Positions 40,705-43,160 of a stretch of DNA of 64,000 bases are shown one piece after another. Within the stretch, counting starts at the first letter, position 1. Every line of letters starts with the position of its first letter. Source of the DNA: Nostocales cyanobacterium (GTDB lineage: Bacteria; Cyanobacteriota; Cyanobacteriia; Cyanobacteriales; Nostocaceae); assembly GCA_004292695.1 (NCBI GenBank), contig RDXV01000001.1:1-64000 (forward strand). The letters are read 5' to 3'. The translations under genes and the position numbers were made by a program. A model generated the notes under the pieces. That model searched no databases and was not told the DNA's origin. It worked only from the letters and a program-made list of their open reading frames with translations.

Positions 40705-40913
40705 CAAGAGAGTATCAATCACAGTGTAGGAGTATAGAAACAAGATTTTATATTTCTTGATACTTCATTATCTATCTCCTTAACTGTAGTGATGATCAGA
40801 GAAAATTGAGTCTCTCTGAAACGCCTTCTGAATTGATTATGCCACTGGCAGAAGTTACTACCAGTTCATATCAACCAGGAGGTTTAACAATACTTAGGGT
40901 TAGCTGAAGGGAA

Positions 40914-41074
40914 CAGTTGACAGTTGACAGTTGACAGTTGACAGTTGACAGTTGACAGTTGACAGTTGACAGTTGACAGTTGACAGGTGACAGGTGACAG
41001 TTGACAGGTGACAGTTAGTTAATTGTTCCCTGTTCCCTATTCCCTATTCCCTATTTCCTATTCCCTATTCCCTG
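40914..41074. repeat. Large STRR: ACAGTTG heptamers then TTCCCTA heptamers
   Basis: About ten perfect CAGTTGA units (40914-40984), then mixed CAGGTGA/CAGTTGA to ~41015, then TTCCCTG/TTCCCTA units at 41028-41074. It lies upstream of the ParM-like gene, but similar arrays occur beside unrelated genes. Confidence 0.92.
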
Positions 41075-41160
41075 ATAATTGGTAACTAATAATTTCCTAT
41101 CGCTTACAATAAACTTTGACGTATTTCTAGCTACACTTAACCCAAGATAAAATTTGTCTG

Positions 41161-41180
41161 ATCTTACATTTTTGTAAGAT
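41161..41180. promoter_or_regulatory. Palindromic operator-like site upstream of the ParM-like gene
   Basis: ATCTTACA-TTTT-TGTAAGAT, two perfect 8-base arms, 45 bases before the ATG. It is a candidate binding site for the ribbon-helix-helix protein encoded downstream, by analogy with ParR autoregulation (inference). Confidence 0.45.
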
Positions 41181-41225
41181 AGGCATGATAACTTTTTACA
41201 GTTAAGTAACCACATAGGAGCTTTC

Positions 41226-42371
41226 ATGACAGAACAACCACCCGTAGCCAACCCCATTAATGCCGCTGCTATTCCCATGAATAAAATTACGGCAACTCCC
41301 AGCCCCATCAACAATAATCAGAATAAACCTGCGGGGGGATCAGGGAAAAACATTCTCAGTGTTGATTTAGGTAGAACATCCACCAAAACTTGTATTGGCC
41401 GTGATCCTGGTGATGTGGTTTTCATTCCTGCCAATGTTAAACAAATGACAATGGAACAAGTACGGGGCGGCGTTTTTGAATCGAAAATGACTGATCCATT
41501 GATGGACTTATGGCTGGAATATCAAGGTAATGGATATGCTGTAGGTCAGTTAGCTGCTGATTTCGGTGCTAATTTGGGAGTTGGTCAATCTAAGGTAGAA
41601 GATGCTTTAACTAAGGTTTTAGCAGCTGCTGGTTACTTTAAGCTCAAGGACGAGATTTCTGTCATCGCCGGTCTGCCTTTTCTCTCTTTAGAACAGTTTG
41701 AAAAAGAAAAAGCTCAGTTAATCAGTCTCATCACTGGGCCTCATGTCATGAATTTCCGTGGTGAAACTGTATCTCTAAATATCACCAAAGTTTGGGTGAT
41801 GCCAGAAGGCTATGGCAGTCTACTATGGTCTGAAGCTCAACCTACTAAAGCTACCACTATGCCTGATTTTACAAAAGTATCTGTGGGTATAGTTGATATC
41901 GGCCATCAAACTATTGATTTATTGATGGTGGATAATTTCCGCTTTGCTAGAGGTCTTTCTCAAAGTGAAGACTTCGGAATGAGCAGTTTTTATGAAATGG
42001 TAGCAAAAGAAATTGAAGGCAACGTTGATAGTCAATCTTTAGCTTTAATTTCTGCGGTGAATAAACCCAAGGGTGAGCGTTTCTATCGTCCCAAAGGTGC
42101 AAGTAAACCCACTAACTTAGATGATTTTCTGCCTAACCTGACAGAGCAGTTTTCACGGGAAATTTGCGCTCGTGTGCTGGCTTGGCTACCAGAACGGGTA
42201 ACAGATGTAATCATTACCGGTGGTGGTGGTGAGTTCTTCTGGGAAGATGTACAGCGTCTACTTAAAGAAGCTAAGGTTAATGCCCATTTAGCCGCTCCTT
42301 CTCGCCAAGCTAATGCTTTAGGGCAGTATATTTATGGAGAGGCGCAATTGTCTGCTAAGTCGCGCAGCTAG
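41226..42371 (+). CDS. ParM-like actin-family protein (chromosomal)
   Basis: 381 residues. A Pro/Asn-rich N-terminal tail (~40 residues) precedes an actin/ParM fold: phosphate-1 loop LSVDLGRTSTKT (44-55), phosphate-2 GIVDIGHQTIDLL (221-233) and adenosine motif ITGGGGEFF (~330-338). Such proteins form nucleotide-dependent filaments, for example to segregate plasmid DNA with ParR and parC. The gene is followed after 12 bases by a small ribbon-helix-helix/coiled-coil protein, the arrangement of parM-parR. AGGAG precedes the ATG. The surroundings are chromosomal housekeeping genes, so plasmid partition is not the obvious role. Confidence 0.85.
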   Translation: MTEQPPVANPINAAAIPMNKITATPSPINNNQNKPAGGSGKNILSVDLGRTSTKTCIGRDPGDVVFIPANVKQMTMEQVRGGVFESKMTDPLMDLWLEYQGNGYAVGQLAADFGANLGVGQSKVEDALTKVLAAAGYFKLKDEISVIAGLPFLSLEQFEKEKAQLISLITGPHVMNFRGETVSLNITKVWVMPEGYGSLLWSEAQPTKATTMPDFTKVSVGIVDIGHQTIDLLMVDNFRFARGLSQSEDFGMSSFYEMVAKEIEGNVDSQSLALISAVNKPKGERFYRPKGASKPTNLDDFLPNLTEQFSREICARVLAWLPERVTDVIITGGGGEFFWEDVQRLLKEAKVNAHLAAPSRQANALGQYIYGEAQLSAKSRS

Positions 42372-42383
42372 GTAATAAAACTA

Positions 42384-42872
42384 ATGTTCCAATGGTCAAA
42401 AAAGGTAGTTAAATCGGTCACTTTCAATCCAGAAATTGCTGATGAGAGCTTGTTAGCACAGATAGAAAGTTACTTAGAGGCAGAGCCGGAAAAGACTTTC
42501 AGTGACCTTTGTAAAGAAGCTCTTTGGAAAGCTTTGTGTGTACCGGAATCTGTACGACCTTCTCCAAATACGGCGACATCACCCACTGACTACCAAATCA
42601 GTGAGTTAAAACGTCAAATAGCTGACCTTGAGGAACGTTTTTTTGCTAAGGAATCCAATCGTTTACAAACGATGGAAGGCCAGATACTACAACTGACTCA
42701 ACAAGTGGCACAACTGGCAATTATGGTCAGTCAGGGGGTTGCCACTCACCAGTCAACTTCATCAGTACCCGTAGTAGAGGCGGTTAATAATCCTCCTTCT
42801 ACCCCCGATCCAGCACCCCAAGAAGTTGATCCTGTGATCAGTCGTCTGAGTCAATTCCTGGATGATTTCTAA
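42384..42872 (+). CDS. ParR-like ribbon-helix-helix / coiled-coil partner
   Basis: 162 residues. Residues ~8-55 fit a ribbon-helix-helix unit: strand VKSVTFNPE, helix DESLLAQIESYLEAEP and helix TFSDLCKEALWKAL. A heptad-rich coiled coil follows (~72-118: YQISELKRQIADLEERFF and LQTMEGQILQLTQQVAQLAIM). A Pro/Thr-rich linker and a short acidic helix (VDPVISRLSQFLDDF) end the protein. In ParR-type adaptors the RHH binds DNA and the C-terminus contacts the filament. The coupling to the actin gene supports this role. It is inferred from fold features, not from recognised homology. Confidence 0.65.
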   Translation: MFQWSKKVVKSVTFNPEIADESLLAQIESYLEAEPEKTFSDLCKEALWKALCVPESVRPSPNTATSPTDYQISELKRQIADLEERFFAKESNRLQTMEGQILQLTQQVAQLAIMVSQGVATHQSTSSVPVVEAVNNPPSTPDPAPQEVDPVISRLSQFLDDF

Positions 42873-42930: not shown

Positions 42931-42970
42931 TTACACCCAGGAGTTGAAAATATTTCTGGGTGTAATCTTT
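42931..42970 (+). terminator. Terminator of the ParM-like/RHH operon
   Basis: TTACACCCAG (42931-42940) pairs with CTGGGTGTAA (42956-42965), a 10-bp stem with a 15-base loop, then TCTTTT. It lies about 60 bases after the RHH gene. Confidence 0.75.
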
Positions 42971-42972
42971 TC

Positions 42973-43160
42973 AGTTATCAGTGATCAGTTATCAGTTGAA
43001 GAAGGGAACAGGGAACAGGGAACAGGGAACAGGGAACAGGGAACAGGGAATAGGGAATAGGGAACAGAGGGAGAAAGATAAATAACCTAATGACTCATGA
43101 CTAATGACTCATGACTAATGACTAATGACTAATGACTAATAGCTAATGACTAATAACTAA
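42973..43160. repeat. Composite STRR: CAGTTAT, GGGAACA, ACTAATG heptamers
   Basis: CAGTTAT/CAGTGAT units, then six or more GGGAACA units and GGGAATA, then ACTAATG/ACTCATG units. It ends at the stop codon of the CPBP protease gene. Confidence 0.9.

Follow-up and report, generated by a model that had tools for sequence, protein, structure and literature searches.

A chromosomal fcmBC (corMR) cell-shape actin operon in a Nostocales cyanobacterium, and fusions of the same actin family on plasmids

The window analysed here, 64,000 nt of contig RDXV01000001.1 of a Nostocales cyanobacterium (GenBank assembly GCA_004292695.1), contains a two-gene operon that is the published FcmB-FcmC (CorM-CorR) cell-shape system, already known, and that in our estimate (probability about 0.96) works as a cell-shape actin system at the membrane. 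Its two open reading frames lie in tandem on the plus strand: fcmB (corM; 41226-42371), encoding a 381 residue ParM-derived actin-like protein, is preceded by a Shine-Dalgarno-like AGGAG (41216-41220) 5' of its ATG and followed, 12 nt beyond its stop codon, by fcmC (corR; 42384-42872), encoding a 162 residue partner protein. The orthology, operon structure, near-universal pairing and domain layout of fcmBC are described below. The interest of the system is that a plasmid-segregation machine has become a cytoskeleton with which filamentous cyanobacteria control their shape, as was published in 2025; the window provides one further instance.

Both genes were assigned with the equivalog models and curated cut-offs of NCBIfam release 20. 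The first frame matches the FcmB model (NF052678) over residues 1-375 with 727.9 bits against a cut-off of 300, and the second matches the FcmC model (NF052682) with 231.4 bits against a cut-off of 90. In Pfam the first protein contains the actin domains ALP_N (E 8e-19) and MreB-like_C (E 5e-10), its nucleotide-site motifs are kept in the alignment, and its best PDB sequence match is 9rmi, 'CorM' (702.7 bits, residues 1-378, almost full length); FcmC has no significant Pfam domain, RHH (ribbon-helix-helix) included. FcmB is 86-88% identical to its closest named relatives. The pair characterized by Nguyen et al. (2025, PMC12645912) in Nostoc punctiforme, Npun_R4472-R4471, shares with that of the window the same equivalogs, gene order, chromosomal location and organism clade; the two differ only by sequence drift, and no functional difference between them is known. 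CorM of Springstein et al. (2025) is the FcmB family under a second name; the names CorM and CorR of this second group are taken here from the title of a preprint as cited in PMC12752495. A first-pass annotation of this DNA, made from the sequence alone, had proposed a chromosomal ParM-like actin in parMR-like order with its partner, perhaps a structural filament rather than a plasmid partition system; the gene order, the actin class and the structural reading are all borne out.

The locus is chromosomal, as it is in complete relatives. In the window's genome it lies on a 119.9 kb contig among housekeeping neighbours, as the first pass had noted, and close orthologues occupy chromosome-size replicons (e.g. 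L086, 5.35 Mb, and L128, a named chromosome). The 5' neighbour, which we read as a Gfo/Idh/MocA-type oxidoreductase, is common to 76 of the 80 named Nostocales loci, and the 3' neighbour, by our reading a CPBP-type membrane protease, to only 11 of them. A terminator-like hairpin (TTACACCCAG...CTGGGTGTAA, then TCTTTTC) is found downstream of fcmC at 42931-42965 on the plus strand. The operon's own terminator, as claimed earlier, is thus present as a candidate but falls outside the interval ending at 42872 to which it had been assigned, and the hairpin scan is by itself weak (3 such sites in 2.5 kb, 1.6 expected). Heptanucleotide tandem arrays with units ACAGTTG, TTCCCTA, AGGGAAC and CTAATGA flank the operon on both sides (40913-41016, 41026-41073, 43003-43067, 43087-43160); we take them for dispersed repeats, on the genome count for ACAGTTG given below.

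The layout of FcmC was derived from an alignment of 52 orthologues, an AlphaFold2 (AF2) model (mean pLDDT 72) and a separate model of the isolated N-terminal domain. The full-length model consists of helices at residues 18-33 and 39-52, a long helix at 67-121, a disordered low-confidence linker and a short helix at 150-159. In the region of residues 10-52 (42411-42539) a strand, KSVTF, precedes the first two helices, which is the ribbon-helix-helix order, and hhalign of FcmC against nine RHH_1 sequences gives a probability of 71% (E 3.7e-5, for a single comparison) with the helices in register, compared with 0.3% for a control made with the partners of Nostoc plasmid ParMs. A few relatives match Pfam RHH_1, RHH_5 or CopG_antitoxin, all below threshold, and VIA-align of the full model gives weak similarity to two RHH proteins, TacA2 (Z 3.3) and NikR (Z 3.2). 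Against this, Foldseek found no significant match for the full model (best E 4.3) and nothing relevant in the PDB for the isolated domain, and profile searching with that domain against the PDB likewise came back empty. The N-terminal domain is therefore a probable RHH, with the reservation that a monomer model cannot show the defining dimeric sheet; the ParR-type RHH thought likely in the first pass is plausible and moderately supported. The coiled coil and acidic tail that it also described are both present: the helix at residues 67-121 (42582-42746) is modelled with pLDDT of about 85-93, and the protein ends in DDF. Coiled-coil length differs widely among families; in four loci (L049, L050, L052, L065) FcmC reaches 287-350 aa, roughly twice the usual size, with matches to the FcmC profile repeating over the coiled coil.

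Both ends of FcmC carry motifs of possible functional importance. At the C-terminus (residues 149-162, DPVISRLSQFLDDF, 42828-42869), where the model places the short helix, relatives follow the consensus DP-h-h-x-R-L-x-x-h-h-(D/E)-(D/E)-F after an unconserved linker; the last residue is Phe in all 62 full-length relatives, and 61 of these end in D/E/Q-D/E-F. The C-terminal peptide of ParR binds the ParM filament, and by analogy the FcmC motif is probably a tail that binds FcmB filaments. Such a tail would account for the failure, in N. punctiforme, of FcmC tagged with GFP at its C-terminus (PMC12645912). At the N-terminus, the codons for MFQW (42384-42395) encode an aromatic motif whose variants, read by eye, are MFQW, MLLKW, MALW and MLW. 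Placed on the FcmB tree, this Trp motif is confined to Nostocales and one Microcoleus-like group, which together form one clade, and is missing elsewhere. The aromatic/basic peptide may contact the membrane; if so, FcmC of other clades would use another means. The invariant Phe motif and the Trp motif have apparently not been stated before, although the CorM/CorR preprint may cover both.

Much of the proposed mechanism is known from N. punctiforme, where fcmB and fcmC are both required for rod shape, which is lost on deletion, where FcmB filaments encircle the cell in association with the membrane, a placement that needs FcmC, and where two-hybrid data indicate that the two proteins contact each other and themselves (PMC12645912). 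FcmB in that species descends from plasmid-partition actins, branching nearest AlfA (PMC12645912). Carried to the window strain by orthology, these functions would combine as follows. FcmB, a ParM-family actin, would polymerise with ATP; FcmC would dimerise through its RHH-like fold and coiled coil, and repeated copies of its tail, in the role we infer for it, would hold FcmB filaments; FcmC would thereby set the filaments on the cytoplasmic membrane, where they would run round the cell and bias its shape towards a rod.

Upstream of the operon, an alignment of 23 non-redundant Nostocales regions reveals two conserved segments. The nearer, TTTTTGTAAGATAGGCATGATAACTTTTTACAGTTAAGT (41169-41207, plus strand), is a long operon-specific block of the form TTTTTGTAAGAT-N-GCATGATAACTTTTTACAGTTAAGT, in which TGTAAGAT is exact in 70 of the 72 Nostocales relatives with the surrounding sequence and whose core occurs once in the genome even when up to 3 mismatches are allowed; the farther, GACGTATTTCTAGCTACACTTAAC (41118-41141, plus strand), also appears to be part of the promoter region. 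The block is probably the promoter and leader of fcmBC. ParR proteins repress parMR, and FcmC of the same cytoskeleton might in addition be an RHH DNA-binding repressor of its own operon, acting through this block. The RHH-like N-terminus of FcmC and the long, conserved, genome-unique block would both suit such a repressor; we nevertheless regard it as unlikely, since a promoter with its leader would predict equal conservation, the block is a poor inverted repeat across relatives, and in N. punctiforme the rise of the operon in hormogonia requires two hormogonium sigma factors, SigJ and SigC (PMC12645912).

The block overlaps a palindrome, ATCTTACA-TTTT-TGTAAGAT (41161-41180, perfect 8+4+8), which the first-pass annotation had described before the operon and proposed to test for binding. 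The palindrome is exactly where it was said to be and is single-copy in the genome, and a perfect arm of at least 8 within 200 nt upstream has a P of about 0.025 (2.5% of dinucleotide shuffles of the stretch). It is, however, private to this genome: all 8 pairs form in none of the 72 relatives, most of which retain 4 of 8 and the best, a single one, 7. Its left arm is not conserved, and only its right half is, as part of the longer block. The palindrome is accordingly not a feature of the family, and was rejected as an operator or parC.

This bears on the reading of the pair as a functional type II partition system (ParMRC) of the chromosome or of an integrated plasmid, in which an RHH protein would bind the palindrome or repeats and the actin would push copies apart. 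In actin class and gene order, and in having a probable RHH partner, the operon does resemble the plasmid ParM-ParR-parC/AlfA group; FcmB has the domains and nucleotide-site motifs of a ParM-class actin ATPase and matches PRK13917, the model of plasmid ParM, at a score far below its cut-off, and the palindrome had seemed to supply a site. Unlike those systems, fcmBC is chromosomal rather than carried on a plasmid being segregated, has a partner that serves the membrane (PMC12645912), and lacks conserved centromere-like repeats beside the operon. Besides the lack of conservation of the palindrome, the upstream regions of 76 of 80 relatives contain no iterated centromere-like repeats, and in the remaining four an 11-14 nt unit occurs about twice. 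Iterons were also rejected as a reading of the heptamer array at 40913-41016, because it is a dispersed genome repeat (380 pattern matches to the ACAGTTG triple unit across the genome) and is not found in relatives. By hhalign, FcmC has no homology to the partners of Nostoc plasmid ParMs. The reading is already contradicted by published mutants, as nucleoid distribution is unchanged in N. punctiforme fcmBC mutants (PMC12645912), and we consider it highly improbable. Elsewhere in the window's genome (L003, 1426-2774, from contig C197), a distant second ParM-like gene, encoding 325 aa, has a 95 aa acidic-tailed partner; the two look like an ordinary partition pair.

The pairing of the two genes was surveyed in 388 cyanobacterial genomes, 91 of which contain FcmB above the curated cut-off, in 93 copies. 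FcmC, searched with its own profile, comes immediately after 91 of these copies in the same orientation; the two others are a fusion copy, discussed below, and a genome in which FcmC is on another contig. Among named Nostocales loci, FcmC is within 400 nt of FcmB in 80 of 80. Co-occurrence, on which the first pass had staked its pairing of an actin with a small partner, is thus strongly upheld, as is conservation across the Nostocales. Nguyen et al. (PMC12645912) left the question of whether the few species with FcmB only are truly without FcmC; in our sample FcmC is essentially never missing once searched for by profile. That the actin gene merely happens to precede an unrelated coiled-coil gene, a notion to which the lack of a significant Pfam match in FcmC might lend some colour, is refuted by this adjacency, runs against the direct interaction of the two proteins in N. 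punctiforme (PMC12645912), and has a negligible probability. One locus (L010, minus strand, about 5664618-5665083 of contig C1 in genome G191) has fcmC split over two frames (92 aa plus the remainder) beside an intact fcmB, by frameshift or sequencing error, and the loci of one family (f31, L066-L073) form a divergent FcmBC branch, in which FcmB scores about 505-520 bits, in cyanobacteria with small genomes (2.1-3.2 Mb) that the published distribution would lead one to expect to be filamentous.

To the published account of fcmBC we can usefully add the profile-based co-occurrence, the predicted FcmC tail and a set of plasmid actin fusions, of which the last, an FcmB fusion within a domain-swapping cassette, is the only one that looks new and offers a moderately interesting lead. 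Searching plasmid sequences turned up members of the FcmB actin family (69-74% identity) in plasmids from Nostoc N6, Dolichospermum UHCC 0315A, and Trichormus variabilis ATCC 29413 and 0441; genome G116 holds a further copy. None of these copies has FcmC alongside. Read from an upstream start rather than the shorter one in PLSDB, they are 508-633 aa proteins in which a hydrophobic N-terminus and coiled coil precede the actin (L162, 3512-6068; L164, 3495-6068; L163, 4149-6050; L165; and L185, minus strand). The MPEG motif has exchanged its Glu in two copies, for N in one and for D in the other. In a quick tree with long branches, the plasmid copies fall within the chromosomal FcmB sequences of Nostocaceae (starred node, 98), which argues that they are derived from the chromosomal family and rules them out as an ancestral partition system.

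The fusions belong to a two-gene cassette found at scattered cyanobacterial loci (L177, 995-4721; L178, 1051-2779; L179, 1321-3500; L180, 277-1983; L181, minus strand; L182, 999-2768; L183, 1095-2830; and L184, 130-1551, where the contig starts at gene B). Gene A encodes about 338 aa with an HNH-like stretch, DASHIxPHSKGG, and glycine-rich hydrophobic stretches; it lies just upstream of gene B in eight of the cassette loci that were inspected, and in L162, L164 and L185 a 336 aa gene with the HNH-like DASH/KHASHIKPHSKGG stretch precedes the FcmB fusion. Gene B joins the hydrophobic and coiled-coil module to a variable C-terminus, which may be the FcmB actin, a dynamin-type GTPase (Dynamin_N, E 3.7e-18), LRV repeats (E 1.7e-17) or, by eye or weak match, a zinc ribbon. 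On plasmids the neighbours of the fusions include a phosphorothioation-associated methyltransferase, a HEPN-annotated protein and helicases. Domain swapping and these plasmid neighbours together suggest that the cassette is perhaps a conflict or defence system; PADLOC defence-system models gave only weak matches of coiled-coil type to it, and gene A was not found in viral contigs. We put forward, at somewhat less than even odds, that a mobile modular membrane system, perhaps one of conflict or defence, recruited the cell-shape actin, with a membrane anchor of its own replacing FcmC. Of the 388 genomes, 10 others contain the fused module by itself; one is that of the window, where a 55 aa fragment similar to the beginning of this module (contig C106, 4799-4945; L175, L186) is possibly a remnant of it.
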